Below, piece by piece: positions 5,824-38,938 of a stretch of DNA of 42,097 nt. Position numbers and translations under genes: made by a program. The notes below the pieces were generated by a model that saw only the letters and a program-made list of their open reading frames with translations, did no database searches and was not told the DNA's origin. Origin of the DNA: an uncultured Oscillospiraceae bacterium (GTDB taxonomy: Bacteria; Bacillota; Clostridia; Oscillospirales; Oscillospiraceae); NCBI GenBank assembly GCA_947624385.1, contig CANQJZ010000018.1, positions 1-42,097 of the forward strand, in the 5' to 3' direction. Numbering within the stretch: the stretch's first letter is position 1; each line of letters begins with the position of its first letter.

Positions 5824-5832
5824 ATCCACACC

Positions 5833-25228: not shown

Positions 25229-25240
25229 AAGGAGTTTATT

Positions 25241-26737: not shown

Positions 26738-26738
26738 G

Positions 26739-26942
26739 ATGTATAAAATTCTCATCGTGGAGGACGACCGGGCCCTGGCGGAGGTCATGGAAAAGCAGAT
26801 CGGCTCCTGGGGCCACGCGGTCCGGTGCGTCCGGGATTTCCGGAACGTGCTGGGGGAGTTTCTGGACTATGACCCCCACCTGGTGCTGCTGGACATCGGG
26901 CTGCCCTTTTTCAACGGCTATCACTGGTGTGAAGCAACATGA
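26739..26942 (+). pseudogene. Stranded 5' part of the native response-regulator gene
   Basis: Codes the first 64 residues of an OmpR-type receiver domain (MYKILIVEDDRALAE with the acidic pair and the phospho-Asp in VLLDIGLP) and ends at GYHWC before foreign codons EAT and a stop. By hand alignment 47 of 64 residues match the N-terminus of the hybrid regulator at 38254. The missing part, starting SEIRRV, is found at 38454 beyond the element. It lies one base after the carboxypeptidase stop and has no promoter of its own, so the native regulator was probably translated by coupling. A truncated receiver could still be made but lacks its DNA-binding half. Confidence 0.9.
26919..26929 (+). other. 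attL core of the integrated element
   Basis: TATCACTGGTG, identical to 38443-38453. To its left lies host gene sequence and to its right the element. It is 46 bp from the end of the serine recombinase gene, as expected for an attachment site. Serine recombinases cross over at a 2-bp core, which cannot be fixed more closely within the 11 bp. Confidence 0.85.
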
Positions 26943-26974
26943 TGCAGAAAGAGGAGCCGCCCGGAGAGGGCGGC

Positions 26975-28579
26975 TCATTCTTCTTTTTTGGGGATTCTGG
27001 GGTATATATCCAGTTCAAAGGCATCGGGCGGAGGAGACTTCCCATCCACCTTTTCTTTGGTATAGACGACCCTCTCCACCACCTCTTTTAAGAGCTGATT
27101 TTTATGGGCTGCATCCGGGAGGGCGTGGTAGACCTCCAGGACGTTCTTCACGCGGGGAACGAGATCGCGGCGGTGCCTCTCGTTTCGGGCAGCCTCCTGC
27201 ACCTCGGAGGAAAGAGCATCCACGCGCTCGCGCATCTCGGAAATCTTGGAGGCCAGCAAGCGGGACCGGGAGAGAAAGGTGTTGGTGTCGTAGACCCCCT
27301 GCTCCAGGAGATCGTGCGTCTTATCGAGCTGCCCGTACAGACGGGAGAGCTCCCCCTCGGCCCTGGAGAGGGCCTTTTTCTTTTGCTCCAGGTCCTTGGT
27401 GAGGGCCGGGGCCTCCGCCTCCCACTCCAGCTCATACCCGTCCAGCCAAGAGGCCAGCCCGGAGAGGATGCGCTCCTCGACGAGGGGGAGGTAGCTGCCG
27501 ATGGTGGGACAGCCAAAGGTGCGGCAAGAGAGGAGCTGGTACTCTTTATCCCGCCCGCAGGTAATTCGTATCAAGGCGTGGCCGCAACGGGAGCAAAAGA
27601 CGAGCCCGGCGAGGGGGGTCTGGAGGGGGCGGCCCTTGCGCGGGGAGGGGTGCCAGGATTTGCGGCGTATCTCGTTTGCAAGGTTGTAGGTCTCCTCGGA
27701 GACGATAGGTGGGTGACGGCCGGGAGCGACGATATACTCACCCTCCTCCGCCGGGAGGCGGACTTTTACCACGCGCCCGTCCACAACCTTTTTCTTTTGT
27801 TTGAGGCGCCCGTAGCGGACCTTGCCGCAGTAGACGGGATTCTCGATCATCTTGGAAAGAGTGTCGGTGCGCCATTCACCGCCGCCGGGACCTGGGATGC
27901 ACAGCTCATGGAAGTATTTGCAGATGCCCCGGAGGGTCATGGGGGAGGAGGAGCCGTCTTCCCCGGTGAGGCCCACCGTGTAGAGCTCAAAGATCATGCG
28001 GACGACCTCGGCCTCCTCCGGGACGGGCTCCAATACCCACCCTTTTTCGTGCTCCAGCTTTTTGCGCTCATACCCATAGGGGGCCAGGTGAGAAATCCAT
28101 TTCCCCTCGCGGACGGAGGCGAGCTTCCCGTTCTCCAGCCGCCGGCGGATGACGGTGTACTCGCGCCGGGACATGAACAGACCAAACTCAAAATACTCCT
28201 CGTCAAATTCGTTGTTGGGGTCGTAGGTTTTAGAGGGGGTGATGATTTTGGTGTCAGAGAATTTGAACGTCTGGGCGATGATGCCCTGGTCGATGGTATC
28301 GCCGCGGGCAAGGCGCTCCACCTCCATGACAATGACACCGGCCCAGAGGCCCTCCTCCACCTCGGAGAGGACCTGCTGCATGACGGGCCGGGAGGCGATG
28401 GTCTCCCCGGAGACGATTTCCCTGTATATGGCGGTAACGTTGAGGCGCTGGCGGCGGGCCAGCTCCAAGAGAGCCCTCTCATGGCGGGCCAGGGTCTCGC
28501 CCTCACCACGGGCCTCCGCCTCCAGGTCCTTCCGGGACTTGCGGAGATAAATTAGATAGTTTTCGTCGAAACCTTCCAT
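26975..28579 (-). CDS. Large serine recombinase (site-specific integrase)
   Basis: A 534-residue DNA recombinase. The resolvase domain begins at IYLRKSRKD, where Ser is the nucleophile, and has the LARGDTIDQG region. A recombinase domain follows (HLAPYGYERKK to IENPVYCGKVRYG), then a zinc ribbon (CSRCGHALIRI with CRTFGC) and a long C-terminal coiled coil typical of enzymes that recombine attB with attP. ATG 28579 behind AGGGG is preferred over TTG 28597. It lies next to attL and catalyses insertion, and with a directionality factor, excision. No such factor was recognised. Confidence 0.94.
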   Translation of the reverse strand: MEGFDENYLIYLRKSRKDLEAEARGEGETLARHERALLELARRQRLNVTAIYREIVSGETIASRPVMQQVLSEVEEGLWAGVIVMEVERLARGDTIDQGIIAQTFKFSDTKIITPSKTYDPNNEFDEEYFEFGLFMSRREYTVIRRRLENGKLASVREGKWISHLAPYGYERKKLEHEKGWVLEPVPEEAEVVRMIFELYTVGLTGEDGSSSPMTLRGICKYFHELCIPGPGGGEWRTDTLSKMIENPVYCGKVRYGRLKQKKKVVDGRVVKVRLPAEEGEYIVAPGRHPPIVSEETYNLANEIRRKSWHPSPRKGRPLQTPLAGLVFCSRCGHALIRITCGRDKEYQLLSCRTFGCPTIGSYLPLVEERILSGLASWLDGYELEWEAEAPALTKDLEQKKKALSRAEGELSRLYGQLDKTHDLLEQGVYDTNTFLSRSRLLASKISEMRERVDALSSEVQEAARNERHRRDLVPRVKNVLEVYHALPDAAHKNQLLKEVVERVVYTKEKVDGKSPPPDAFELDIYPRIPKKEE

Positions 28580-28598
28580 AGGAACCCCTAACGGCAAA

Positions 28599-28629
28599 GC
28601 GGCCCCCGGAGAGGGGGCCGCAGCTTTTT
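28599..28629. terminator. Hairpin between repressor and integrase genes
   Basis: GCGGCCCCC and GGGGGCCGC form a 9-bp stem. The T-run lies on the plus strand, so on the minus strand it is a weak terminator that may lower integrase expression from the repressor transcript. Confidence 0.55.
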
Positions 28630-29182
28630 ATTTCCGCCCGGCGGCGGTGATGTCTGATTGGAGCAGGCTGTCGGCAGCCGTAACAAGGGAGGTCTTTAGG
28701 GTGTTCTGGTGCTCCATGAGCTCCGGGAAAGCGCCGGAGAGATCGGAGGAGCGGGAGGCGATGGAGCGCAGGGTGTCGCGCTCACGCTGGAGGACGCCCA
28801 GCAGCTCGTCGTACAGCCGGAGCTCTTCACCGTCCTGTTCCAGCACGGCGCGGGACAGCAAGCGGTACACGTTGTTGATGGCGGAGGTGACGATGGATTT
28901 CAGCTCTGGCGGGAGGGCATCATACCCACGCCGAAAGGCAGCGCTGTCGCAAGACCATTCAATGCCGGCGCGGGTTCGGTCATCATCTCGGCCAAGTAGA
29001 TAGTCGGTGGTGACGCCGAAAAAGGAGGCCATAGAGCAGAGCAGGGAGTACGGCGGCTCCTTATCCTCGCTCTCGTAGCCGGAGATAGTGCTCCGCTGTT
29101 TGTTGAGGGACTTCGCAAGATCGTACTGCGACATATCCCTCTCCCGCCGGAGGGCGGTAAGACGTTCGGAAAAGACACGCAT
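28628..29182 (-). CDS. CI/Cro-type HTH repressor
   Basis: A 184-residue DNA-binding protein with an N-terminal HTH_3 domain (residues 5-60: RLTALRRERDMSQYDLAKSL, then STISGYESEDKEPP and FFGVTTDYLLGR). The C-terminal half is helical and has no LexA/S24 peptidase motif, so release is probably not by RecA-dependent self-cleavage. It is divergent from the HTH gene at 29361, and the shared gap holds several GCCCC-type operators. It is the likely master repressor of the element. Confidence 0.88.
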   Translation of the reverse strand: MRVFSERLTALRRERDMSQYDLAKSLNKQRSTISGYESEDKEPPYSLLCSMASFFGVTTDYLLGRDDDRTRAGIEWSCDSAAFRRGYDALPPELKSIVTSAINNVYRLLSRAVLEQDGEELRLYDELLGVLQRERDTLRSIASRSSDLSGAFPELMEHQNTLKTSLVTAADSLLQSDITAAGRK

Positions 29183-29206
29183 GGTAGCTACCTCCTAAGT
29201 GGTGTG

Positions 29207-29237
29207 ATTATATCACAAAATGCCCCAAATAGGAACA
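29207..29237 (-). promoter_or_regulatory. Repressor promoter with operator copy 1
   Basis: The minus-strand -10 TATAAT is at 29212-29207, with a weak -35 TTCCTA. TGCCCCAAATAGGAACA (29221-29237) overlaps the spacer and -35, fitting autoregulation. Confidence 0.65.
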
Positions 29238-29273
29238 ATTGCGAGCGGAAAAGACGCCGATTAAAAAATTTTT

Positions 29274-29340
29274 TGCCCCAAATAGTTGACATTGCCCCAA
29301 TTAGGGACTATAATGAGCGCAACAAGCCCCGATAGGGGGC
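29274..29340 (+). promoter_or_regulatory. Rightward promoter with operator copies 2-4
   Basis: Consensus TTGACA (29286-29291), 17-bp spacer and TATAAT (29309-29314). Operator-like copies: TGCCCCAAATAG (29274-29285), TTGCCCCAATTAGGGAC (29292-29308, in the spacer) and GCCCCGATAGGGGGC (29326-29340). This is a phage-type switch opposite the repressor promoter. Confidence 0.8.
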
Positions 29341-29360
29341 GCAGAGAGGAGGTGAAAGAG

Positions 29361-29702
29361 GTGCGGACGGTCATGGTAAAGGCGCGGAAAGCAGCCGGAT
29401 ATACCCAGCAGAGTATCAGCGACGAGCTCCACATCAGCCGGAGCCATTACTCTCAAATCGAGAGCGGGGAGAAAAACCCCTCGCTGGCGTTAAGCATGAG
29501 GATTAAGAAGGTCTTGGGGTACCCCTACGACGATCTTTTTTTAATCCGAAACGCCCCGTTTCGGGGCCAAAGAGAGAAAAGCAGACGCAGTAGGCGTCCT
29601 CATCGTTCCCTACGCCCATATTCTACACGGGAGGAGGCAGGAGATAAATGCCTAAGATGGCGACGAAAGCCGCAAAGAACGTCTTTTACAAAGCACGGAT
29701 AG
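29361..29702 (+). CDS. Small HTH regulator (Cro-like) with abnormal C-terminus
   Basis: A 113-residue ORF starting at GTG 29361 behind AGGAGGTG. Residues 1-65 are an HTH_3 domain (ARKAAGYTQQSISDELHISR, SHYSQIESGEKNPSLAL, KKVLGYPYDDLFL). In relatives a regulator of this kind normally ends soon after DDLFL. Here the frame continues for some 45 Arg/Ser-rich residues through a CCCCG-TTT-CGGGG hairpin and into the next gene, so the tail is probably a read-on after loss of a stop. It is the first gene of the rightward transcript and probably opposes the repressor. Confidence 0.7.
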   Translation: MRTVMVKARKAAGYTQQSISDELHISRSHYSQIESGEKNPSLALSMRIKKVLGYPYDDLFLIRNAPFRGQREKSRRSRRPHRSLRPYSTREEAGDKCLRWRRKPQRTSFTKHG

Positions 29703-29875
29703 CGGCCGCGTCGTGGAACGACAAGCTCTCCAGCAGGGAGGGCGCGGCGGAGGTGACGGGGATTGATAGGACCCGGCTGGCAAATATCGAGCTTCACGAT
29801 CTGGGAGCGCGGAAAGAAAAGGCCCATCGATGCCCCGCATATCACCGACCGGCAGATACACAAGACGGCATGTAA
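29648..29875 (+). pseudogene. 5' part of a small XRE-type regulator, cut by a deletion junction
   Basis: ATG 29648 behind GGGAGGAGG. The first ~48 residues (MATKAAKNVFYKARIAAASW, then DKLSSREGAAEVTGIDRTRL) match a small regulator common on Firmicutes phages and conjugative elements, as recalled from family knowledge. After ANIEL the protein stops resembling that family, which should continue with a Pro-Tyr-Pro-Glu-Glu-Val segment. From there the sequence becomes readable as reverse transcriptase in another frame. The change point is near 29785-29795. Confidence 0.7.
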
Positions 29876-30686
29876 CGAGATACTCATACCCCTTTACACA
29901 CCGTCCATGATTCAGGACAACGGGGCCAGCCGAAAAGGGATGGGCCTGCACTACCAATACCGACGGCTGAAACAGCAGCTCCAGTGGCATTACCGCCGGT
30001 ACGGGAGGACCGGGGCCGTTGCCCTGCTGGACTTGAAGCAGTTCTTCCCAGGAGCGCCCCGCCAGGTCATTTACCAGCGGCACGCCCGGTATATCCCGCG
30101 CCCGGACCTGCGGCGCGTCGTGGACCAGATCGTGGCGGAGTCGCCCGCGACGGGACCGGGCCGGGGCATGCCCCTGGGCCTGGAGCCCAGCCAGCAGGAA
30201 ATGGTGAGCCTGCCGTCGGCGGTGGATAACTGGCTCAAGTGCCAGGTGGGAGCGCACTGCGCCGGCCACTACATGGACGACTACTACATCATCATGCCGG
30301 ACGTGGAGCGGCTGAAAGAGATCGTCCGGGAAATGGTCCGCCGGTTCGAGGCGCTGGGCATCCGGGTCAACAAGCGCAAGTGCAAGATCGTGCCGCTGAC
30401 GGAGCCGTTCCGGTTCTGTAAGGCCAGGTTCACCCTGACGGAGACCGGGGCCGTCAAGATCAACGGCAGTCGGGACGGCGTGAAGCGGGCCCGGCGAAAG
30501 CTGCGCATGTTCCGCCGGGAGCTGGACGAGGGCAAGCGGACCCTGGAGGGCGTCGACGAGTTCATGAACAGCCAAGAGGCTTATTACAGGAATTTCAATG
30601 ACCACGGCCGCGTGCTACGGCTACGACGGCTGCATTATGCAATTTTTGGAGGTGCGACATGTTCAGAATTATCAAAGACGGCGTGA
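29763..30686 (+). CDS. Phage-type reverse transcriptase, N-terminally truncated
   Basis: A 307-residue ORF from TTG 29763. Recognisable sequence starts at residue 11 (FTIWERGKKRPIDAPHITDR). Motifs in order: RPIDAP, DRQIHK, DNGASRKGMG, catalytic Asp in LLDLKQFF, GMPLGLEPSQ (an SQ ending, as in diversity-generating retroelement enzymes), the YMDD active site, and LGIRVNKRKCKI. All catalytic Asp residues remain. The usual N-terminal 40-80 residues are replaced by the regulator's 3' reading. A fortuitous GGAGGTGA stands six bases before the TTG, so it could still be made. No template/variable repeat pair was seen. It overlaps the next gene by 28 bp. Confidence 0.8.
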   Translation: MIGPGWQISSFTIWERGKKRPIDAPHITDRQIHKTACNEILIPLYTPSMIQDNGASRKGMGLHYQYRRLKQQLQWHYRRYGRTGAVALLDLKQFFPGAPRQVIYQRHARYIPRPDLRRVVDQIVAESPATGPGRGMPLGLEPSQQEMVSLPSAVDNWLKCQVGAHCAGHYMDDYYIIMPDVERLKEIVREMVRRFEALGIRVNKRKCKIVPLTEPFRFCKARFTLTETGAVKINGSRDGVKRARRKLRMFRRELDEGKRTLEGVDEFMNSQEAYYRNFNDHGRVLRLRRLHYAIFGGATCSELSKTA

Positions 30687-31285
30687 GCCTGGGCCTGGTC
30701 GAGCGGCCCACCTATATCACCAAAGCGGACAACGGATGCTTTGTCCTGTGCCCGGAGGCGCAGGCGCGGGGCATTGCGTACCGGGACATACCCTACCACG
30801 TCATAGGCCGCCCGCCCATGGAGGGCGCGGAGGACGTGATGCTGGAGGCCGTGGACGGCGGGGGCGAGATCGACAAAGCCACGGGGACCGGCGGCATCCT
30901 GTTCGTAACCCTGGCGGAGGCCGGTTCCATCGACGCCGTGACCGCCGCAGAGCACGCGGAGCTGTTCGCGGAGTGGACCTACCCGGTGAAATATGAGGCG
31001 GGGAAGATCGTGCGGGACCCCTATGACGGGATGCTCTACAAGGTGAACGAGGGGCAAGGCCACACCTCCCAGGAGGACTGGGCGCCCCACAAGACACCGG
31101 CGCTGTGGACCAAAATCGCGGACCCGGCGGAGGAGTGGCCCGCGTGGAGCCAGCCTATCGGGGCCCACGACGCCTACGACAAGGGCGACAAGGTGAGCCA
31201 TAAGGACCGGCACTGGCAGAGCACCGTCGCCGCCAACGTCTGGGAGCCGGGGGTGTACGGCTGGGACGACGTGACGGAGGAATGA
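30659..31285 (+). CDS. Phage tail-associated protein with C-terminal carbohydrate-binding region
   Basis: A 208-residue protein starting at ATG 30659 behind GGAGG. The N-terminal 100 residues (FRIIKDGVSLGLVERPTYIT) are found beside tail genes in related phages. The C-terminal ~70 residues are Trp-rich (WAPHKTPALW, AYDKGDKVSHKDRHWQS, NVWEPGVYGWDDV), resembling a family 5/12 chitin-binding-like module used for attachment to surface glycans. It lies between the reverse transcriptase and the small late genes. Without the rest of the tail its role in this element is unclear. Confidence 0.7.
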   Translation: MFRIIKDGVSLGLVERPTYITKADNGCFVLCPEAQARGIAYRDIPYHVIGRPPMEGAEDVMLEAVDGGGEIDKATGTGGILFVTLAEAGSIDAVTAAEHAELFAEWTYPVKYEAGKIVRDPYDGMLYKVNEGQGHTSQEDWAPHKTPALWTKIADPAEEWPAWSQPIGAHDAYDKGDKVSHKDRHWQSTVAANVWEPGVYGWDDVTEE

Positions 31286-31288
31286 GGC

Positions 31289-31696
31289 ATGCGATACATA
31301 ACGAGGCGGCGGACCAGGTTCCGGGCCATCTGCGGGACGGTCAACCTCCCCTATGGGACCCAGGTGCAGGAACGGGACGGATTTTTGTATCTGTCCGACG
31401 GGCGGCAGCTTTGCACCCCGGAGAGCAAGCACGGGGAGGACTTTTTCTGCGTCGACGAGGACGGCCACGGCCGGGAGCGCGGCGCTCTTATCAACGCCAT
31501 CCTCTCCCGGCTGCAGAGGCAGGATGACCAGCGGCAGGCCCGGTGGGAAAAGGTATGGGCCAGTGACCTGTGCGCCCGGTACCGGCGGCAGGACCACAAG
31601 GATTTTTGGCTCTGGAGCCACGCCCTCTACTGCGCCCCGGTGGAGGACCTGGAGAAGATTGCGGCGCTCACCGGCGCGGTCACAGCGAGGGGGTAA
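31289..31696 (+). CDS. Phage late hypothetical protein
   Basis: A 135-residue protein with no recognised domain. It begins RYITRRRTRFRAICGTVNLP, includes a short beta segment (DGFLYLSDGRQLCT), and ends with a helical Arg/Trp-rich part. ATG 31289 is 3 bp after the upstream stop. Its constant place downstream of the reverse transcriptase and tail protein suggests a late tail- or lysis-linked role; this is inferred from position. Confidence 0.6.
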   Translation: MRYITRRRTRFRAICGTVNLPYGTQVQERDGFLYLSDGRQLCTPESKHGEDFFCVDEDGHGRERGALINAILSRLQRQDDQRQARWEKVWASDLCARYRRQDHKDFWLWSHALYCAPVEDLEKIAALTGAVTARG

Positions 31697-31700
31697 TGGC

Positions 31701-31904
31701 GTGGACAATTTGCAAATGGTCGAGAGCCTTTGCTCCATGTGCGAGGAGCTGGCCCGTTTGGTCGGCGTGCTGGCAGAGCACCTGGCGCAGCTTGGCGACA
31801 CGTCCATGACGGACGAGATCGCCGCAGCGGACGCCCGGTATAGGGCCGTCCTGGGAATCCAGGGCGGCCCCTGTATTCTTGAAACGAAGGAGGGCGGGAT
31901 ATGA
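31701..31904 (+). CDS. Small phage late hypothetical protein
   Basis: 67 residues from GTG 31701, reading DNLQMVESLCSMCEELARLV. It is helical and acidic, with no membrane segment. Its stop overlaps the next start (ATGA at 31901), so translation is coupled with the XhlA-like gene. No known function. Confidence 0.55.
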   Translation: MDNLQMVESLCSMCEELARLVGVLAEHLAQLGDTSMTDEIAAADARYRAVLGIQGGPCILETKEGGI

Positions 31905-32176
31905 CAGAAGGTATCATCGTCGCGCTCATAGCTGGCGCCTCAAGCATAGGAGGCGCAGGCATCGGAGCGTACTTCGCCAACAAGAAGTCGACCGCGCTCA
32001 TCGCCTACCGGCTGGAGCAACTGGAGAAAAAGGTGCAGGCGCACAACAATCTGGTGGAGCGCACCTACAAGCTGGAGGAGCGCACGGAGGTCCAGGAGGA
32101 AAAAATCAAGGTGGCGAACCACCGGATTAGTAACCTTGAAAACCGGGCCGGGCCTATCGCCCGACCGGAAAAATAA
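31901..32176 (+). CDS. Phage membrane protein with coiled coil (XhlA-like)
   Basis: 91 residues: an N-terminal hydrophobic helix (IIVALIAGASSIGGAGIGAY) followed by a coiled coil (YRLEQLEKKVQAHNNLVERT and on). The small membrane-plus-coil design next to holin and endolysin resembles XhlA-type or spanin-like lysis helpers of Gram-positive phages. It may tether or regulate the holin. Confidence 0.6.
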   Translation: MTEGIIVALIAGASSIGGAGIGAYFANKKSTALIAYRLEQLEKKVQAHNNLVERTYKLEERTEVQEEKIKVANHRISNLENRAGPIARPEK

Positions 32177-32195
32177 AAAATTGGAGGTACTTATC

Positions 32196-32399
32196 ATGAA
32201 GGGAAATTTCATCGCGTGGCTCAAGGCCGCCGGCATTCGGGCGGTCAAGACTTTCGCACAGACCGCCGTGGCGCTTATCGGCACGGAGCTGGTGGGATTC
32301 ACGGAGCTGGACTGGCTGCACATCGTTAGCGTGGCCGGCGTTGCGGCTGTCCTCTCCCTGCTCACCAGCATCGCGGGTCTGCCGGAGCTGGATAACTGA
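32196..32399 (+). CDS. Phage holin (r1t-like)
   Basis: 67 residues with two hydrophobic segments (IRAVKTFAQTAVALIGTELV and HIVSVAGVAAVLSLLTSIAG) and short polar ends. This is the small two-helix holin type found in many Firmicutes phages. ATG 32196 has TTGGAGG upstream. It sits directly before the endolysin, the usual order, and would form membrane lesions that release the endolysin. Confidence 0.8.
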   Translation: MKGNFIAWLKAAGIRAVKTFAQTAVALIGTELVGFTELDWLHIVSVAGVAAVLSLLTSIAGLPELDN

Positions 32400-32413
32400 G
32401 GGGCGAGAGAGCT

Positions 32414-33268
32414 ATGGCAACCGCAACAAAGGTAGTCGATATTGCACTGGCAGAGGTCGGCTACAAAGAAAAGGCCAGCAACCGGGACCTGGACTTGGCG
32501 GCCGCCAATGCCGGGTCCGGCAACTGGACGAAGTATGCGCGGGACCTTGCTGACGCCGGGTACTACAACGGCAACAAAAACGGTTACGCCTGGTGCGACG
32601 TTTTTGTGGACTGGTGCTTCTTTAAGGCTTTTGGCAAGACGGAGGGCCAGATCATCGAATGCCAGACCGGGACCCTTGGCGCGGCATGCCCCTATTCTGC
32701 GGGCTACTACAAGGCGCAGGGCCGCTATGACCGCAATCCCAAGGTGGGGGACCAGGTGTTCTTCCAGCAGGGCGGCGAGCTCGTCCATACGGGCATCGTA
32801 GTGGCGGTCTCCGCCAACCAGGTCACCATCGTCGAGGGCAACGCCTCCGACCAGGTGAAAAAGACCATCTACAACCAGAGCTCCACCTACATCGCGGGCT
32901 ACGGCCACCCCATGTACGACGGGACCTCCTCCGGCTCGACCGGCGGGAGCACCTCCGGCGGCTCCAGTTCCAGTGGCGGCAGCTCTGCCCCGCCCACCCC
33001 CAAGGTGGGCGCGGCTTGCACCATCACGCTCCACGCCCTCTCAAAGGGGAGCACCGGGGCGGAGGTCAAGACCATCCAGCGTATTTGCTTCGCCCGCGGC
33101 TGCAAGGGCGCGGACGGCAAAAACGTGGAGGTTGACGGCGAATATGGCGGCAACACCGTGGCCGCCGTCAAGAAGCTCCAGCAACAGCTCTTCCCCAATA
33201 CTCCCAGCGAGTGGGACGGGAGTTGCGGTGCCAAGACATGGGCCGCCGCGCTGGCGCAGCTCTGGTAA
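32414..33268 (+). CDS. Endolysin with CHAP domain and C-terminal peptidoglycan-binding domain
   Basis: A 284-residue lysin without signal peptide. Residues 1-165 form a CHAP-like cysteine amidase/endopeptidase: catalytic Cys in GYAWCDVFVDWCF and His in ELVHTGIVV. A Ser/Gly/Thr linker (about 172-195) leads to a C-terminal domain with two peptidoglycan_binding_1-like segments (SKGSTGAEVKTIQRI and GEYGGNTVAAVKKLQQQL). It degrades the host wall after holin release. ATG 32414 lies 14 bp after the holin stop. The lysis module looks intact although most of the phage is gone. Confidence 0.92.
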   Translation: MATATKVVDIALAEVGYKEKASNRDLDLAAANAGSGNWTKYARDLADAGYYNGNKNGYAWCDVFVDWCFFKAFGKTEGQIIECQTGTLGAACPYSAGYYKAQGRYDRNPKVGDQVFFQQGGELVHTGIVVAVSANQVTIVEGNASDQVKKTIYNQSSTYIAGYGHPMYDGTSSGSTGGSTSGGSSSSGGSSAPPTPKVGAACTITLHALSKGSTGAEVKTIQRICFARGCKGADGKNVEVDGEYGGNTVAAVKKLQQQLFPNTPSEWDGSCGAKTWAAALAQLW

Positions 33269-33314
33269 GGCTAGGCGGACCAGAGCAGACACAACACAGC
33301 AATACCATCTACAA

Positions 33315-33360
33315 GGGGCACCCCAGGGCGATAATCCAGGGGTGCCCCGATTTTTTGTTT
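33315..33360 (+). terminator. Terminator after the endolysin
   Basis: GGGGCACCCC (33315-33324) pairs with GGGGTGCCCC (33339-33348), followed by GATTTTTTG. It ends the late transcript. Confidence 0.9.
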
Positions 33361-33615
33361 TCCGGGAGCGGAAAAGACACGCGAGAGGCATTTCCGGCGC
33401 GGAAATATGGTATATAGCGTATTTCCGGCGCGGAAATACGCCACATAGGGTATTTCTGTGGCGGGAAAAGAAGCGTGCCGTTTGAGGCCCTTTTCGTGGC
33501 GCAGGGTGCCTCCTGTCTCCGGCCTATAAAGAATCATATATCCGGGTCAGAAATGCCTCACAGGGCCCTTTTCCGGGGCGGAAATACCATTTTGAGGCGA
33601 TTTCCGGGGAATCTA
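33358..33615. repeat. Array of palindromic ~31-bp repeats
   Basis: Seven or eight degenerate copies of an ATTTCCGGCGCGGAAATA-like palindrome, at about 33359, 33390, 33421, 33452, (33490), 33538, 33570 and 33600. Most are 31 bp apart, and the 13-bp intervals also resemble each other. Copies at 33390 and 33421 are identical over 18 bp. It lies in the 33269-33764 non-coding stretch between lysis genes and lipoprotein. Intervals are too short and too alike for CRISPR. Confidence 0.75.
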
Positions 33616-33670
33616 TCCGCAAAGTAAAGTAAAGTATAGTAGAGAAGAGTATAGGAGAGTATATGTATTT

Positions 33671-33733
33671 CAGCGAGCAAGGGCTCGCTGGAGCGCGAGA
33701 GCGTTTGTTTTTTTCATTTTGGCGTGGTATAAT
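33671..33733 (+). promoter_or_regulatory. Hairpin and promoter before the lipoprotein gene
   Basis: CAGCGAGC/GCTCGCTG (33671-33690) forms a hairpin. It is followed by TTGTTT (33705-33710), a 17-bp spacer and TATAAT (33728-33733). AAGGAGG and ATG 33765 come next. A purine-rich AGTA-type short repeat precedes it (33613-33664). Confidence 0.65.
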
Positions 33734-33764
33734 GCAAAAACAATACCGCAAGGAGGATGCAGTA

Positions 33765-34360
33765 ATGAAAGAGCACTCCAGACCCGGCACAGTGTCCACG
33801 CCTGGGGCACGAATCCCACGCGGGGGGGTAAATTTTTACACCCCTCATGGACAGGCACAGTAATATTCATCGTCCTTTTATGCCTCACGATATTTAGCGG
33901 GTGCGGGAGCAAGGGCGCGGGCGATGACGGAGCCGTCGGCGGACCGGCGGAGGAGATCGCAACAGCGGAGCCCTCGGTGGAAAACCGGGACGCGCTGGAG
34001 GAGGCCATTGAAGCCGCGCTCACGCCGGAGACATACAAGACCGTCTCCAAAGTGACCGTCCTGGAGCTGGACGGGAAATTCAACGTCAGCATTCGAGTGA
34101 TAGCGGCCGGAGGCTTTTTCATCCCGGACGTGGCGGAGGAGACGGCCCCCGCAGTTTTCGCCAAGGCTGAGGAGCTGGGGGTGGAGATCAACCGCTACTC
34201 GGTGGAGGAGTACACGGAGAGCAACACAGAGGGCGTTGACAACATGATAGCGTGGACGAGCACGGACGGGGAGACCGGGATATTCACTGACGGGACGAAT
34301 GGACAGGCCATTGTGAAGCCGGGAGTGACCCTGGACGGGTTGCGTGATATAGTGGGATGA
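33765..34360 (+). pseudogene. Element-encoded lipoprotein gene with a one-base frameshift at a G7 tract
   Basis: The promoter and AAGGAGG serve ATG 33765, but that frame ends after 32 codons (stop at 33863). The main frame (to 34360) has a lipoprotein signal (VIFIVLLCLTIFSGC with the Cys lipobox) and about 150 mature residues, and contains no ATG, GTG or TTG between the promoter and the signal. One extra G in the G7 run at 33822-33828 would join the two into one ORF. The mature part (ETYKTVSKVTVLELDGKFNV and on) matches no family I recognise. It could be a mutation, a sequence error or a slippage switch. Confidence 0.7.
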
Positions 34361-34371
34361 CCCAAAATGGG

Positions 34372-34409
34372 GCGGAGAGGCGCACAGGATGGCCTCTCCG
34401 CGCTTTTTT
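34372..34409 (+). terminator. Terminator after the lipoprotein gene
   Basis: GCGGAGAGGC and GCCTCTCCGC form a 10-bp stem followed by GCTTTTTT. Confidence 0.9.
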
Positions 34410-34439
34410 CGTTTTAGGCGGGCAGGGATAGCCCCGCGA

Positions 34440-34650
34440 CCGGACGCGCTCACAGCGCGATTCTCGGCCTCTCAAGGCCATAACCCCCAAAAGAAAGACC
34501 AACGGCCCATGAGGGGGTGAAGCAACGGGCCAGCGAGGGGAGGGCGGGGCAGCCGCCTCTCGGTGGTGGGGCAGCCTCCAATACCGCGGCGGGGAGCCGG
34601 AGGGGGTGCGAATAGGACAGCACCGCCGCCGGCCGCTGGGCGCGGAATCT
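34440..34650 (+). ncRNA. Possible structured RNA or long leader
   Basis: A 250-bp gap with no credible ORF. It has two tight hairpins (CGCGCT-CAC-AGCGCG at 34445-34459; GGCCT-CTCA-AGGCC at 34466-34479). ACCCCC (34483-34488) can pair with GGGGGT (34513-34518) while GGCCC (34504-34508) pairs with GGGCC (34527-34531), an H-type pseudoknot arrangement. It precedes a small gene at 34664. The region is GC-rich, so chance pairing is a real possibility. Confidence 0.3.
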
Positions 34651-34663
34651 TTAGGAGGCATAT

Positions 34664-34864
34664 ATGCTGTACGACATCCCCATGGAGGACCGCCCGGAGG
34701 CCCCGGAGATCGCACGGGCGGAGGAGACGTTGAGCGAGCTGCTCAAGAGAGTGGAGGACCCGGACCTCCGGGAGGAGATCGACCGGGCAAGCGGCCGCGT
34801 GGGGTATCTCCGCCGGGCGGAGGGATATGCGGCGGGCATCCTCGCCGCGCTGGAGGACAGATAA
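34664..34864 (+). CDS. Small acidic hypothetical protein
   Basis: 66 residues from ATG 34664 behind TTTAGGAGG. Charged and helical (ARAEETLSELLKRVEDPDLR), no membrane helix, no recognised domain. It is followed directly by a strong terminator and converges with the minus-strand operon. It may be expressed from the upstream structured leader. Confidence 0.6.
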   Translation: MLYDIPMEDRPEAPEIARAEETLSELLKRVEDPDLREEIDRASGRVGYLRRAEGYAAGILAALEDR

Positions 34865-34871
34865 AAGCGGA

Positions 34872-34898
34872 GGGGCCCGGCATCACGCCGGGCCCCTT
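34872..34898. terminator. Convergent terminator at the end of both transcripts
   Basis: GGGGCCCGGC-ATCAC-GCCGGGCCCC followed by TT. It separates the plus-strand 66-residue gene from the end of the minus-strand operon. Confidence 0.8.
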
Positions 34899-34921
34899 AA
34901 CGTCGCCGCGCCGGAGCGGGC

Positions 34922-35371
34922 TCACGCATCCATATATCGCCAGAGGTAGCCGCCGCAAGAGGGTATCTTTCCCTTGCAGGCTTTTCCGATGGCGCTGTCA
35001 TCAAGGCCGTTCTCACGGGCTGCTGCGGAGAGGCTTTTATACTCGGCCAGCACTCGCCCGGTGCCGCGCTCTATCTTGCAGACGGGAGCTGGGGTGGAGC
35101 CACGGTACTGGCTGGGGGAATAGGTCTGGCCGGTGAGAGGGCGCGTCCTCCTGTTCCAGGCGGCCCCGGCCACGGCCCCGCCGAAAAGAAAGCCCTGGAG
35201 CTCATAGGCGCGGGCCAGCTTGCCGATGATGGCGTCGGCCCGGTCCCGGAGGTCCTTGGAGAGGGAGGCCAGCAAGGGGGCCAGCTCCTCCTCGGCAACC
35301 TGCACGTCGGAGATACCGATATGCAGGGCGTCATCGTTCTCGTTCATCTCGTACAACGCTTTGTAGATCAT
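34922..35371 (-). CDS. Hypothetical protein with C-terminal NUMOD1-like DNA-binding module
   Basis: 149 residues. The N-terminal ~95 are acidic and helical with no match I recognise. The last ~55 (VCKIERGTGRVLAEYKSLSA, AARENGLDDSAIGKACKGK, then GGYLWRYMDA) resemble the NUMOD1/IENR module usually attached to homing endonucleases. No GIY-YIG or HNH nuclease motif is present, so it may be a DNA-binding protein or adaptor. It is the last gene of the seven-gene minus-strand operon. Confidence 0.6.
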   Translation of the reverse strand: MIYKALYEMNENDDALHIGISDVQVAEEELAPLLASLSKDLRDRADAIIGKLARAYELQGFLFGGAVAGAAWNRRTRPLTGQTYSPSQYRGSTPAPVCKIERGTGRVLAEYKSLSAAARENGLDDSAIGKACKGKIPSCGGYLWRYMDA

Positions 35372-35383
35372 AGCGGACCCCTT

Positions 35384-36148
35384 TCAGCACCCGTACCGGC
35401 CAAGAGGGGTCTCGGTAAGGGAGGAGACCCAATCAGCCAGGCGGTCGCCCGCATCCGTGCGGACGGTCCAGTGGCGGTTACGCCCGATGAAGTGCCGGAG
35501 CAGGTGGAGCAGGCCGGGGTCATTTTCATCGACCCATACCTGCAGGGTGGGGTAATCCACGGTGCCAAGAGAGTGGGGGAGCGTCCGGGCGGAGGAGGGG
35601 AGCTCGCGGTCAGCGGCCAGCTCACGCCGCTCCAGCTCCTCGAAATGCCGCTTGACCTCCTCGCGCCGGGAGACGGCCTCCGGGTCGAAGTTAAACTCGT
35701 CGCCGTAGTAGTAACAGTCCGTCCCCTTTTTTAGGCCCTGGCGGGCGCTCTTAAAGACCCGGTAGCCGCCAAGATCGGGGAGGACCTTTATGGCGTCAAA
35801 GCTCGCGCCGTAGCCGTTCACCACCTGCAGGATGCCGCGCTCGGTCCATTCAAAGGTCCGGGAGCGCGGGACCTTATCGTAGAGGTCACTTCCCAAGAGG
35901 GAATGGCGGTTCTCGTCGTCGTTGTCATCATCGTCGGTGATGCGGAAAGCGGCCACGATGAAGCCCGTGTACTTCCACTTATAGAGCTCCTCGGAGCAGT
36001 GCTTGGTCCTCTCGGAGCCGTGGAGCTCCAGATAGATGGGGGAGCCGTCGTCCAAGTGAAAGGCGGCGCGGATGCGACAGTTACCCACCGTCGCCCGGCT
36101 GATGTCGGCGCCGCTCCAGCCGGCACCCTCGAAGTACAGAGTTTTCAT
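35384..36148 (-). CDS. Conserved hypothetical protein of mobile elements
   Basis: 254 residues from ATG 36148, whose ATGA overlaps the upstream stop. It begins KTLYFEGAGWSGADISRATV and has a dense acidic segment (ITDDDDNDDENRHS), followed by a beta-rich core and VDENDPGLLHLLRHF near the end. I recall similar proteins on gut Firmicutes integrative elements, always uncharacterised. No catalytic motif or membrane helix is visible. Confidence 0.65.
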   Translation of the reverse strand: MKTLYFEGAGWSGADISRATVGNCRIRAAFHLDDGSPIYLELHGSERTKHCSEELYKWKYTGFIVAAFRITDDDDNDDENRHSLLGSDLYDKVPRSRTFEWTERGILQVVNGYGASFDAIKVLPDLGGYRVFKSARQGLKKGTDCYYYGDEFNFDPEAVSRREEVKRHFEELERRELAADRELPSSARTLPHSLGTVDYPTLQVWVDENDPGLLHLLRHFIGRNRHWTVRTDAGDRLADWVSSLTETPLGRYGC

Positions 36149-36747
36149 ATCCCAATCTCCTTTCTGGCATCCATCGCCCGGAGCTCCAGGCGGGAGGGGT
36201 GCTCCACCGCATTGCGGGTGATGCTCTTGAAGCAGTACCCGCAGAATTTCCAAAGGCCATCTTCCTCCGGGATTCGGCTGAACGTCACATAGGTCGGGAG
36301 GTATTGCCCGGTGCCGTTGTTCTCATGGCTGAACGGCTCGCCAATCTGTGTGCAAGAGGACCAAAGCAGGGTGGGCGGGAGAGCGTTCACAAGATCGTCC
36401 ACCACGTCCCCCGTCACCTTGTCGCCGGGGGAGAAGTAGTCCTCGAAGTTGAGGCCGGAGCTCCTCCAGCCGGAGAGGGTCTTGACCGTCTCCTTGGAGC
36501 GGAGCCTCTCGCGGGACTTCTCCAGGAAGTCGAGGACGGCTATGTACTGGAGCGGGTCCAGCTTCACGTCATCGCCATCCCCGCAGGGAAAGACGCGGAC
36601 ATCGGACAAGAGGAGCTGCGCCTGCATGACGGCGGTGGTGACGTAGCGCCCGGAGGCGTCCCGGAGCTCCATTTCAACCGTCTCCGGGAGATCGCCGGAG
36701 GCGTGGTAGTAAATGAGCTTGGGATTGAGAGAGGCGAGGCTCTTCAC
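36145..36747 (-). CDS. Conserved hypothetical protein of mobile elements
   Basis: 200 residues from GTG 36747, which overlaps the previous stop (GTGA). It starts KSLASLNPKLIYYHASGDLP and contains VKTLSGWRSSGLNFEDYFSP. Two pairs of cysteines near the C-terminus (SSCTQ and CGYCF) could form a metal site. Unknown function. The tight coupling with both neighbours suggests a shared complex or pathway. Confidence 0.65.
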   Translation of the reverse strand: MKSLASLNPKLIYYHASGDLPETVEMELRDASGRYVTTAVMQAQLLLSDVRVFPCGDGDDVKLDPLQYIAVLDFLEKSRERLRSKETVKTLSGWRSSGLNFEDYFSPGDKVTGDVVDDLVNALPPTLLWSSCTQIGEPFSHENNGTGQYLPTYVTFSRIPEEDGLWKFCGYCFKSITRNAVEHPSRLELRAMDARKEIGI

Positions 36748-37106
36748 TGCTGTTCATCTCCTTTCATTTCAGAGGCGAGGGTCAGCTCGTCAATGAACGT
36801 GCTTGTCTCGGTGCCGTCGGAAAAACGGACCTGATACATGGGGCCGGTCTCAAAGAGGTCAGCCTCTTCATCGGTGAGAGGGCGGAGCACGGTGCAGGTG
36901 AGCTCTCCGGGAACCAGCTCGTAGGAGCTGATGTCAGAGGGGGAGAGGGGCTTCTCGTACTCGACGTAGCCCCAGGCGGGCCGGTCTATCGCTCTGGTGT
37001 AGACCCTGCTGCAGAAGCCCTTGACCTCCAGGACCTTGTTCTCCGCCGGCCGGGGGTAGGCCCCCGGCGCGGGCGGACGCTGCGTGCTGTAATACCTGAT
37101 TCCCAT
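36744..37106 (-). CDS. Conserved hypothetical protein of mobile elements
   Basis: 120 residues. ATG 37106 is chosen because GGAGGAG lies six bases upstream; GTG 37112 is the alternative. It starts GIRYYSTQRPPAPGAYPRPA and has a YVEYEKPLSPSDISSYELVP segment, with an acidic end. Proteins of this kind are frequent on Firmicutes conjugative elements, as recalled, but have no known role. Coupled to the genes on both sides. Confidence 0.65.
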   Translation of the reverse strand: MGIRYYSTQRPPAPGAYPRPAENKVLEVKGFCSRVYTRAIDRPAWGYVEYEKPLSPSDISSYELVPGELTCTVLRPLTDEEADLFETGPMYQVRFSDGTETSTFIDELTLASEMKGDEQQ

Positions 37107-37108
37107 AT

Positions 37109-37282
37109 TCACTCCTCCAATTCGGTGTAGATTTCCCCGTCCACCAGGACGGCCGCGTAGGCCACCAGGCCCGCGTAGAACTCTGCCTCTGCGAGGCCCT
37201 CGATGTCATCCAGGGTCATGTCCGGGCCCGCGGTGCGGACCCTCTCGGAGCCGTCAAGGCCCCGCGTCTTGAGCTGTATCAT
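37109..37282 (-). CDS. Small hypothetical protein
   Basis: 57 residues, read directly: IQLKTRGLDGSERVRTAGPD, then LDDIEGLAEAEFYAGLVAYA. ATG 37282 has TGGAGGCAG upstream, and its stop touches the next start. No recognised domain. The position inside a tightly packed operon supports it as a real gene. Confidence 0.55.
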   Translation of the reverse strand: MIQLKTRGLDGSERVRTAGPDMTLDDIEGLAEAEFYAGLVAYAAVLVDGEIYTELEE

Positions 37283-37297
37283 CTCTGCTGCCTCCAG

Positions 37298-37591
37298 TTA
37301 GAAGTTGCCCGGGTAGATGACGCTCCGGTCGTGAAGGGCGTCGAGCCAGAGGCGGGTCCGGGCCATGTCCCCGCGGTCGAGGTGGATGCTGCTCATGGCC
37401 GTGGCGATGGCGTACCAGCAGTATTCCTCCTGCGCCCCCGGCGTCACCGTCTTGCGGAGCTCGACCTTGGTGGAGACCCCCTCGTAGCGGACGGTCAGGT
37501 GGTACTTGCTGTTGTCCTCCTTGACGTTGAGGACCTCCAGCTCGAACGGGAGTGTCTTGCGGACCTCCTCGAAAACATCAAGCATCGTCAT
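37298..37591 (-). CDS. Hypothetical protein
   Basis: 97 residues from ATG 37591 behind GAAAGGAG. A longer in-frame form could begin at ATG 37672, but that ATG lies inside the parS-like site and has no ribosome site. Sequence TMLDVFEEVRKTLPFELEVL then YHLTVRYEGVSTKVELRKTV suggests a small alpha/beta protein. Unknown function. Confidence 0.6.
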   Translation of the reverse strand: MTMLDVFEEVRKTLPFELEVLNVKEDNSKYHLTVRYEGVSTKVELRKTVTPGAQEEYCWYAIATAMSSIHLDRGDMARTRLWLDALHDRSVIYPGNF

Positions 37592-37655
37592 AGCGTTCTC
37601 CTTTCTCCCCGTGCGGCCGGTAGGGCAGCTTGTTGCCGCGTTTTGGGGCTGAGAT

Positions 37656-37671
37656 TGTTTCATGTGAAACA
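37656..37671. promoter_or_regulatory. parS-like ParB-binding site
   Basis: TGTTTCATGTGAAACA differs at one position from the Firmicutes parS palindrome TGTTTCACGTGAAACA. It lies in the 37592-37732 intercistronic stretch. Confidence 0.6.
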
Positions 37672-37697
37672 TTTTAGCCCCCTTTCGGGTCCCAGAA

Positions 37698-37714
37698 GGG
37701 TAAAATTTTTACCC
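37698..37714. promoter_or_regulatory. AT-core palindrome, possible operator
   Basis: GGGTAAAATTTTTACCC, a perfect 8-bp inverted repeat around one base. A similar GGGTAAATTTTTACACCC lies at the lipoprotein frameshift (33826-33843). Confidence 0.45.
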
Positions 37715-37732
37715 CTAATTTTGAAGTCCTCC

Positions 37733-37936
37733 TTATCGTGTGTAACCGTGGGTGCAGAAGCTGCCGTTTCCCGCGAGAAGATTCTTGATGTAGTTCTTAT
37801 TGGTGCTGCCGTCGAGGATTCTCTGGTAGTCCGTGTCGCTAATCTCAACCGTGTCGTGGTCCGTTGTTGTCCAGCTCTCTATGCCGTACCGCTCAATCAT
37901 GTTCCAGGTGTCGATGATGTTCCGAAGCTCTTTCAT
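37733..37936 (-). CDS. Small hypothetical protein, first gene of the minus-strand operon
   Basis: 67 residues from ATG 37936 behind AAGGAGG. It reads KELRNIIDTWNMIERYGIES and on to NKNYIKNLLAGNGS. The same leader, AAGGAGGACTTCAAAA, is repeated directly after its stop codon (37719-37734). No known family. It lies about 150 bp downstream of the operator-containing promoter. Confidence 0.6.
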   Translation of the reverse strand: MKELRNIIDTWNMIERYGIESWTTTDHDTVEISDTDYQRILDGSTNKNYIKNLLAGNGSFCTHGYTR

Positions 37937-38088
37937 TTTTGAAGTCCTCCTTTTTGTAGGCTCTTGGGAGGAAGGTTGCCGTTCGTGCTCGCCGTTACCG
38001 CCCGCCGCCATCCCTGGGATTTCCCCGCTTCCGACCGGCTTTCACTGTCGCTTTCCTGTTTTATCCTCGCTCCCTTGAGCTTGACCTC

Positions 38089-38117
38089 ATTATAGCCCCT
38101 AAAAGGGGCAATGTCAA
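38089..38117 (-). promoter_or_regulatory. Operon promoter with GCCCC-N5-GGGGC operator
   Basis: On the minus strand TTGACA (38117-38112), 17-bp spacer and TATAAT (38094-38089). The spacer holds GCCCCTAAAAGGGGC (38095-38109), the same palindrome type as at 29326-29340, and the -35/spacer start matches the rightward promoter at 29286. Repressor control is inferred. Confidence 0.8.
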
Positions 38118-38209
38118 GTAAAATTTTTGGCATTTGGCCCGTTTTGGGTCATTTTTTTGGAAATTTTTTTGTGCAGACCGTCCAGAGCCTGGTCTGCGGG
38201 CGTTTCTCG

Positions 38210-38238
38210 TTGACGGGGGACCAGGGCGGGGGTAAAAT
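38210..38238 (+). promoter_or_regulatory. Element-borne promoter driving the rebuilt response regulator
   Basis: TTGACG (38210-38215), 17-bp G-rich spacer and TAAAAT (38233-38238), then GGAGGGGAGG and GTG 38254. It lies inside the element. Confidence 0.8.
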
Positions 38239-38253
38239 ATCCCCGGAGGGGAG

Positions 38254-38934
38254 GTGGCGCTGATTTATAAAATATTCATTGTAGAGGACGACCGGGCGCT
38301 GGCAGAGATCATGGGCCGGCAGATCGAGAGCTGGGGCCATGAGGTGAGGCTCGCAAAAGACTTCCGGCGGGTGCTGGAGGAGTTCCTGGAATACGACCCG
38401 CACCTCGTTTTGCTGGACATAAATTTGCCGCATCGTGTTGGGTATCACTGGTGCAGTGAGATACGGCGGGTGTCCAGCGTACCGGTGGTGTTCATATCCT
38501 CCGCGTCGGACAACATGAACATCGTCATGGCCATGACCATGGGCGGGGACGATTTTCTGCCCAAGCCCGTGGACCTGCAGGTGATGACGGCCAAGCTCCA
38601 GGCGGTGCTGCGCAGGGCCTACGACATGGGCGGGAAGATACCCGTGCTGGAGCATAACGGCGCGGTGCTGAACCTGAACGACGCCAGCCTGAGCTATGAT
38701 GGCAAGCGGGTGGAGCTGACAAAAAACGAGTTTCGCATTTTGCAGACCCTGCTGGAAAACAAGGGCAAGGTGGTCAGCCGGGACACGCTCATGACCCGGC
38801 TGTGGCAAATGGACGCCTACGTGGAGGAAAATACCCTGACCGTGAACGTGACGCGCCTGCGGCGCAAGCTGGAGGATGCCGGGCTGCGGGACTTTATCGC
38901 CACGCGGGTGGGCTCCGGCTACATCGTGGGGTGA
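38254..38934 (+). CDS. OmpR-type response regulator, hybrid of element 5' part and host 3' part
   Basis: 226 residues. The receiver domain (1-120) has VEDD, phospho-Asp in LLDINLP and the Lys in LPKPVDLQ. The C-terminal winged helix (130-226) shows LTKNEFRILQTLLENKGKVV and RLRRKLEDAGL. Residues 1-67 come from the element (up to GYHWC at 38453), the rest from the chromosome. GTG 38254 has GGGGAGG upstream. It pairs with the BceS-like kinase 4 bp downstream. The family often senses peptide antibiotics or wall stress. The hybrid N-terminus differs from the native one at 17 of 64 positions, so partner specificity may differ. Confidence 0.92.
   Translation: MALIYKIFIVEDDRALAEIMGRQIESWGHEVRLAKDFRRVLEEFLEYDPHLVLLDINLPHRVGYHWCSEIRRVSSVPVVFISSASDNMNIVMAMTMGGDDFLPKPVDLQVMTAKLQAVLRRAYDMGGKIPVLEHNGAVLNLNDASLSYDGKRVELTKNEFRILQTLLENKGKVVSRDTLMTRLWQMDAYVEENTLTVNVTRLRRKLEDAGLRDFIATRVGSGYIVG
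38443..38453 (+). other. attR core of the integrated element
   Basis: TATCACTGGTG, identical to 26919-26929. Left of it is the element's replacement 5' gene part, right of it the native 3' part. Confidence 0.85.
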
Positions 38935-38938
38935 GCGC

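Follow-up and report, generated by a model that had tools for sequence, protein, structure and literature searches.

We describe an insert of 11,513 bp (positions 26930-38442) in a stretch of 42,097 nucleotides (nt), hereafter the window, of contig CANQJZ010000018.1 from an uncultured Oscillospiraceae bacterium (assembly GCA_947624385.1). The insert cuts a response-regulator gene of the OmpR/PhoB type within codons 61-64, and at its far end the remainder of that gene continues in frame from a different, homologous 5′ part. It is very probable that the insert is an 11.5-kb defective prophage, which entered the regulator gene by recombination through a large serine recombinase (LSR) and rebuilt, at the right junction attR, a hybrid regulator gene with a promoter of the element. 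In the proposed mechanism, the LSR would recombine the genomic core TATCACTGGTG with an element site, attP, whose left arm is situated at the 3′ end of a captured regulator 5′ part. On integration the native 5′ part would become a defunct remnant next to a peptidase gene, and the hybrid gene at attR would consist of the element promoter, element codons 1-60 and then the native codons. Because this hybrid gene is formed, the host would still have a complete regulator beside the kinase, one whose N-terminal half differs in part and which is read from a new promoter, and selection for host survival may be what has kept the 5′ part.

The native locus is recognisable on both sides of the insert. 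Upstream lies the host gene for a Peptidase_M32 (carboxypeptidase Taq; 25241..26737, plus strand; PF02074, E=6e-170), which is the neighbour of the regulator also in the related loci L009, L011 and L012, and a single base separates its stop codon from the native regulator ATG. The left-over native 5′ part (26739..26929, plus strand) comprises codons 1-64 minus the last base, shows 98% amino acid identity to the intact gene of genome G017 from the same genus and aligns with it at the nucleotide level through the core; its open reading frame (ORF), 26739-26942, ends with ...GYHWCEAT. In the preliminary description of this DNA, 26739-26930 was taken as 64 native codons, which stands except for the last base, 26930, which is the element's own (TGT for TGC, silent). 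The native remainder of the regulator gene occupies 38454..38934 (plus strand; 98% nucleotide identity to G017 over 477 columns) and is followed by the native sensor histidine kinase (38939..39940, plus strand), which contains a HATPase_c domain and whose best NCBIfam match, SapS, is far below the cut-off of that family.

In G017 (locus L009) no insertion interrupts the genes for peptidase, regulator and kinase. Window positions 26000-26929 align with that genome at 95.7% over 930 nt and positions 38443-39500 at 96.0% over 1058 nt, and the two alignments overlap by exactly the 11-bp core. A longer stretch of G017 gives two alignments, of 4404 nt at 94.0% and of 2547 nt at 92.1% identity, that meet without an additional base. 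Loci L011 and L012 have the same empty-site join at 87.5-91.5% identity, so that all three relatives show 26930 joined directly to 38454, as had been predicted for genomes lacking the element. A search of 35 genomes of the genus (the source genome included) found the C-terminal part of the regulator at E<=1e-40 in 30 of them, and each of the 28 distinct complete native genes reads through the core in one frame; this set excludes the window's own gene and one G012 gene cut by a contig end. One of the 28 (L038) is more distant, with 69% identity in the C-terminal part, and may be a paralog. Compared with G017, the left-over fragment has one replacement and six silent changes in codons 2-56, and this lack of decay suggests that the insertion is recent.

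These empty sites also bear on the possibility that the locus once held a tandem pair of regulators, of which the first has decayed, the other being an ordinary paralog, native and complete, separated from it by phage genes; this we consider highly improbable. Second regulator copies do occur in some genomes of the genus, several at 61-67% identity, and G028 has a second, contig-cut copy (C73/C76) with 92-94% identity in the C-terminal part. Close relatives, on the other hand, have one gene, to whose two halves the window fragment and remainder align with an overlap of 11 bp only, and the supposed second gene agrees with G017 at 98% in its 3′ part, whereas silent sites in its 5′ part have diverged far. 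The single-gene empty sites contradict the tandem arrangement and we rejected it. Relatives with two regulators at this place, which the preliminary description had set against its own interpretation, were not seen among the same-genus native loci, the neighbourhood of the contig-cut copy in G028 being unplaced. Still less probable is an artefact of assembly that joined unrelated contigs. The source genome is a draft (2.18 Mb, 65 contigs, 93% complete), but both junctions are located in one contig, share a common core and flank an integrase gene, and the flanks are collinear with those of the relatives.

The hybrid ORF (38254-38934) encodes Response_reg and Trans_reg_C domains, and the HATPase_c kinase follows it. 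Its replacement 5′ part (38254..38442, plus strand), recognised by its in-frame ORF, by homology and by constraint, supplies 60 homologous codons that run without a frame break into the native remainder; element and native 5′ parts agree in 47 of 64 residues and in 137 of 192 nt. The receiver fragment, the 11-bp TATCACTGGTG repeat at both junctions, the count of 47 identical residues and the in-frame passage of a different 5′ part into the native regulator and kinase, all reported earlier, were reproduced here, and the replacement gene start that had been ascribed to the element corresponds to these 60 in-frame codons, which are under constraint.

The two parts of the hybrid gene differ in their history. 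In phylogenetic trees the 3′ part groups with G017 (support 100/97) and the 5′ part with locus L013 of genome G029, on a branch of 0.37 substitutions per site and with 89/90 support, which is under the tool's threshold, the bootstrap value not being settled. The L013 gene (1290-1481) is a native regulator, and its promoter and 5′ part are those nearest to the replacement of the element (80% over 193 nt), a hint that the replacement may have come from this lineage. Silent distances from nine native genes are 0.84-2.0 for codons 2-56 of the element 5′ part, 0.16-0.49 for the left-over native 5′ part and 0.09-0.55 for the native 3′ part, values that derive from 55 codons and are near saturation. 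The ratio of replacement to silent change (dN/dS) of the element 5′ part is 0.08-0.21 (0.13 against L013). Fourteen bases in codons 2-56 are found only in the element when compared with the 28 genus genes; ten are silent, four change a residue and none creates a stop, where a neutral simulation gave 3.7 silent changes (P=0.0005). Since these private changes are mostly silent relative to the neutral expectation, purifying selection seems to have acted on the reading frame along the branch of the element itself, and judged by these comparisons we regard the 5′ part as old and constrained.

The same data make it unlikely that the 5′ part was captured by chance, in a sloppy excision, and has no role, its frame being a coincidence. 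In favour of that explanation there is one carrier genome only, residues 57 and 59 depart from a conserved motif, and a stop-free frame is not rare by chance, having survived in 66% of the neutral runs. It accounts poorly for a promoter-like and a ribosome-binding-like region in the native layout, for the preservation of the frame and of the pocket residues, and for private changes that are mostly silent.

The attachment sites are consistent with integration by a serine recombinase. The attL core TATCACTGGTG (26919..26929) has the host half to its left and the element half to its right, and its 11-bp repeat forms the attR core (38443..38453). Joining the element ends reconstructs attP, in which the left arm GCATCGTGTTG (38430..38440), situated inside the codons for P56-H-R-V-G60, and the right arm CAACATGATGC (26935..26945) form an inverted repeat matched in 10 of 11 positions, 18 nt apart and centred on the core, at the TG step in TATCAC-TG-GTG. 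This dyad was equalled in 5 of 3000 flank shuffles with the centre allowed anywhere in the core; arms of 18 nt matched in 13 of 18 positions and were equalled in 12 of 3000. A looser test over more centres gave 10/12, equalled in 36 of 2000 shuffles, whereas attB is without such a dyad (8/12; 253 of 500 shuffles equal). For serine integrases, attP arms unlike the attB arms and a short common core are expected. The element has the short core, the unlike arms and, beside the att site, an uninterrupted gene for an LSR of 540 amino acids (26975..28597, minus strand; Pfam Resolvase and Recombinase; PHROG integrase, E=3e-97), the 3′ end of which points towards attL, and it would probably have been this enzyme that made the junction. 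A terminator-like stem-loop between the left-over gene and the recombinase (26954..26976, pattern scan) matched on both strands; the stretch that holds it has three such sites against a shuffle mean of 1.6, not clearly above shuffle level.

The left attP arm deserves closer consideration, as codons 57-59 of the regulator (CAT CGT GTT) fall within it and encode H-R-V in place of the mostly F/Y-x-N/D of native genes. We compared the element with 69 native genes (28 from the genus and 41 from elsewhere in the family, reduced from 114 loci to distinct genes). Of the 69, 67 have F or Y at position 57 and all have N, D or S at position 59; H57 and V59 occur in none, R58 in six, and the element residues at positions 1, 16 and 54 are likewise absent from the native set. 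The pocket residues E8, D9, D10 and D52 (native numbering) are invariant in the 69 genes and kept in the element. In codons 54-60, 7 of 21 bases are found only in the element, compared with 12 of 156 in codons 2-53 (Fisher P=0.0024, one-sided, for a region picked after the data were seen). Among solved structures the nearest are 5dcl and 5dcm ('PhoB family transcriptional regulator', which we take to be NsrR), where the arm position reads LPYFNG. An AlphaFold2 model of the hybrid, built with 21 sequences, has a receiver-like and a DNA-binding-like part (mean pLDDT, the predicted local distance difference test, 82.9; pTM, the predicted template modelling score, 0.58); in its numbering, three above the native one, the arm residues form the loop 60-62, with a local pLDDT of ~90, directly ahead of helix alpha3, which starts at 63, strand beta3 having ended at D55. 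Such a model speaks to shape and not to activity. Because the attP and attB arms of an LSR differ and the repair falls in the middle of a domain, recognition of the site competes with the protein sequence for one set of bases. The likeliest explanation is that DNA recognition dictates the arm bases and that the protein tolerates the change; the locus is in this respect a natural test of how far recognition of an att site can bend a conserved protein. More tentatively, and with a good deal of doubt, the attP arm might be dual-coding, as recombinase site and as beta3-alpha3 loop of the receiver domain, with changes at residues that elsewhere hardly vary; insertion and excision might then toggle the host between two regulator variants and two promoters, one peptidase-linked and one the regulator's own, a mobile and reversible tuning of the two-component system by a serine-recombinase element.

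The element also carries a promoter-like sequence, TTGACG-17-TAAAAT (38210..38238, plus strand; 10/12 consensus), in front of the hybrid gene. The kilobase around it contains three promoter-like sites, compared with 0.4 in shuffles, and a terminator-like stem precedes it at 38135-38151 (three such stems against 1.3 in shuffles, not clearly above). Promoter-like and ribosome-binding-like regions of the element 5′ part follow the native layout: by pattern scan, such a promoter lies 19-39 nt ahead of the start in 12 of the 28 genus genes, the end of the peptidase gene takes that place in six, and ten have neither by these patterns. In L014 and L018 the peptidase is ~110 nt upstream, and L018 has such a promoter in addition. 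In the three closest relatives of the window the regulator abuts the peptidase, and a pattern scan of window positions 25000-27100 revealed no plus-strand promoter-like site; the insertion therefore probably shifts the regulator from peptidase-linked expression to a promoter of its own, and probably changes its expression. The view that the insertion does 'no net harm', put forward in the preliminary description, goes beyond what the sequence shows, given the unusual residues in a conserved loop and this probable change of promoter.

The gene content of the insert points to a defective phage. Its reverse-transcriptase (RT) gene (29763..30686, plus strand; Pfam RVT_1) is a 3′ part that matches residues 151-447 of the 447-residue RT in a related prophage of genome G239, with 86% amino acid identity over 297 residues, and lacks the first 150. 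We scanned 15 element ORFs against at least one library, ten of them against PHROGs, and obtained no terminase, portal, capsid or tail match, so the packaging, head and tail genes of a complete temperate phage are missing from the scanned set; the one weak hit listed under 'head and packaging' is that of the endolysin to phrog_1224, itself a family of endolysins. Related prophage DNA occurs in G239, G023 and G019 at 77-78% nucleotide identity over ~2.1 kb, and in G239 the RT gene sits between baseplate/tail genes and an endolysin. As the RT is truncated relative to these prophages and matches to structural and packaging genes are lacking, the element has most likely arisen from a prophage by deletion. 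Direct repeats of 124 nt (87-88%) were noticed near the RT gene in G239 and G019 and perhaps represent, together with the RT, a diversity-generating retroelement in those prophages; the regions concerned, RT and repeats taken together, are L328:3971-5314 and 5360-6302 and L329:1305-2357.

Other carriers were sought in several data sets. Element DNA was matched in 72 of 400 family genomes and in 29 of the 35 genus genomes (own included), as pieces of up to ~2.1 kb and as native regulator 5′ parts, and no second copy of the element was present among them. When the 64-residue native N-terminal part was compared with the 400 family genomes, at least 149 of which had a match, no other open frame shorter than 170 amino acids was seen among the matches listed; further short frames were those of G287 (170 amino acids) and G366 (178, with stops inside). 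G262 (179 amino acids) breaks near residue 133, not at the core, and was dismissed as a split gene, as were the short genus frames of G012 (130) and G028 (177), which are at contig ends. In G012 the N-terminal part on contig C25 and the C-terminal part on C9 both end at contig ends inside an ordinary gene. Viral contigs yielded no carrier of the 5′ part (one stretch fitted a pattern and proved no relative) and no carrier of the attP dyad. Fourteen phage records matched the 5′ part, all at <60% identity, and the three examined each continue past the core as a regulator gene, so that they were discarded as attP carriers.

Several observations weigh against the proposed origin and function of the hybrid gene. 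The exact attL sequence is present in one of the 400 family genomes, the source genome itself, so there is a single carrier, a draft. Opposite the native ATG the element has ATT (38263), and the nearest in-frame GTG is three codons upstream, at 38254; the replacement may start either at this GTG or at a non-standard codon at 38263, and in either case the start would be shifted or non-canonical. The absence of H57 and V59 from all 69 native genes means that the hybrid may work less well than the native regulator. The neutral test is founded on 14 sites. A deletion derivative is, moreover, of doubtful present mobility, although the element may still be able to move. On the proposed reading the hybrid would be expressed and functional, for which the constraint on its 5′ part is indirect support only.

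Relatives of the LSR (L040-L117, L147-L226) were collected from 11 loci in family genomes, 67 viral loci and the best 80 of 142 genome loci; since these sets overlap in part (L043 is contained in L208) and the last is the best 80 of 142, the loci are not independent events. Where at least 300 nt were available beyond the LSR, a fragment of a Mn-catalase (cotJC-like) gene was found within 600 nt, in either orientation, in 57 of 128 loci. These genes are cut near codon 61-65 (e.g., L158, L165, L179, L197, L221 and L164; Pfam checked on one example), and in some loci both gene halves are present ~3-10 kb apart, which suggests small sporulation-gene-intervening elements. By analogy, the window insert could be a regulatory switch that holds the native form off until excision restores it, as the sporulation genes spsM and gerE are rebuilt by excision (PMC4191935, PMC5595907). 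Although such a neighbourhood is frequent among the related recombinases, we think this role improbable, if somewhat less so than capture by chance: the element supplies a complete alternative reading frame, and the gene is therefore not simply off when the element is integrated. When 109 loci were tested for a duplicate of the neighbouring coding part, with a view of up to 10 kb, there was one weak hit (L065, 39% over 38 amino acids), and the window element was detected as positive control. None of the related loci showed the regulator 5′ part next to the LSR; three weak regulator matches occurred (L191, L214 and L218, 23-34% identity). In a tree of 70 LSR proteins the window protein is placed on a long branch without firm support, and for that reason we do not claim a switch from a cotJC target. 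In one of the closest recombinase relatives (54%; L149 / L051) the LSR adjoins a flavodoxin-like N-terminal part (Flavodoxin_4), a further target gene.

Repair of a protein-coding target has precedents, which we compared with the reconstructed integration. The integrases of the dusA elements (IntdusA), of SXT/R391 and of the icd-targeting elements are of the tyrosine type; the published 5′ repairs at dusA and prfC thus use tyrosine integrases, and the icd elements replace a 3′ part. Carriage of a replacement is usual among integrases whose target is a tRNA or protein gene (PMC10111431), and PMC8409611 documents 5′ repair that brings a new promoter for dusA elements and, by citation, for SXT/prfC. 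The preliminary description was right that target repair is known for tRNA-targeting elements; the precedent is wider and includes protein genes (PMC10111431, PMC8409611). PMC3715440 contributes the general rule that holds for tRNA-type sites. As is proposed for the window element, dusA elements (IMEVchUSA3) combine 5′ repair with a new promoter, expression having been demonstrated there by a lacZ fusion (PMC8409611); unlike the window element, they use IntdusA with a PrtN-like factor, RdfN, and a 21-bp imperfect repeat, target a tRNA-modification gene and replace ~35 residues, compared with half a receiver domain here. The SXT/R391 element at prfC likewise provides a 5′ repair with a new promoter (PMC8409611) but is an integrative conjugative element (ICE). 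In icd-targeting phages and islands attP also carries a replacement part of a protein gene; a difference is that the block of identity to the host gene can be long there, up to ~250 bp (PMC10111431). At torS, a promoter of prophage HK022 takes over a host signal-transduction gene and raises its expression, and the abstract names no replacement coding part (PMC6814406). Serine-integrase ICEs at rumA of streptococci yield chimeric genes by exchange, as here, whereas it is the 3′ parts of rumA and of the integrase gene that are swapped, with a frame change and no homologous 5′ repair (PMC4701971).

The LSR elements in cotJC/Mn-catalase-like genes resemble the window element in their recombinases (~40-54% identical) and in cutting at ~codon 61-65, and differ in that no clear replacement part was detected within the view of up to 10 kb; compared with sporulation gene-intervening elements of the skin and spsM type, the target here is a response regulator beside its kinase and is rebuilt in frame. 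A large survey of LSRs sorts their targets according to the disrupted gene, and the term 'response regulator' is absent from its main text (PMC10083194). Titles and abstract beginnings in the open-access literature revealed no LSR element with 5′ repair and no response regulator repaired in this way. As 5′ repair with a new promoter is already known from dusA and SXT/prfC, the window element does not represent a new principle. The published 5′ repairs that we found concern housekeeping genes, and here a serine recombinase would repair its target in the middle of a signalling domain. The element further provides a contrast between a repairing element and recombinase relatives that split cotJC-like genes, and makes available alleles of one two-component system that form a natural pair, one carrying the insert and one lacking it.

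The remaining genes of the element include two regulators next to the recombinase, a repressor-like helix-turn-helix (HTH) protein (28628..29182, minus strand; Pfam HTH_3, PHROGs transcriptional regulators) and a second HTH protein (29286..29702, plus strand; Pfam HTH_3). Downstream of the RT gene follow, all on the plus strand, a CBM5/12-domain protein (30659..31285, domain scan), an XhlA-like protein (31901..32176, below the Pfam cut-off), an r1t-type holin (32136..32399; PF16945, E=2e-20) and the endolysin, with CHAP and peptidoglycan-binding domains (32414..33268, domain and PHROGs matches). An accessory block on the minus strand encodes an HNH/homing-endonuclease-like protein (34922-35371) and a DarA_C-domain protein (36744..37112; PF18789, 'Defence against restriction A C-terminal', E=4e-21). 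A perfect consensus promoter, TTGACA-17-TATAAT (38089-38117, minus strand), points into these accessory genes and stands back to back with the promoter-like sequence of the regulator. On the other side of the locus, the kinase gene adjoins a long repetitive open frame (40019-42097, minus strand) with repeated motifs such as 'YRVYYREHGGAW', which may encode a surface or repeat protein.

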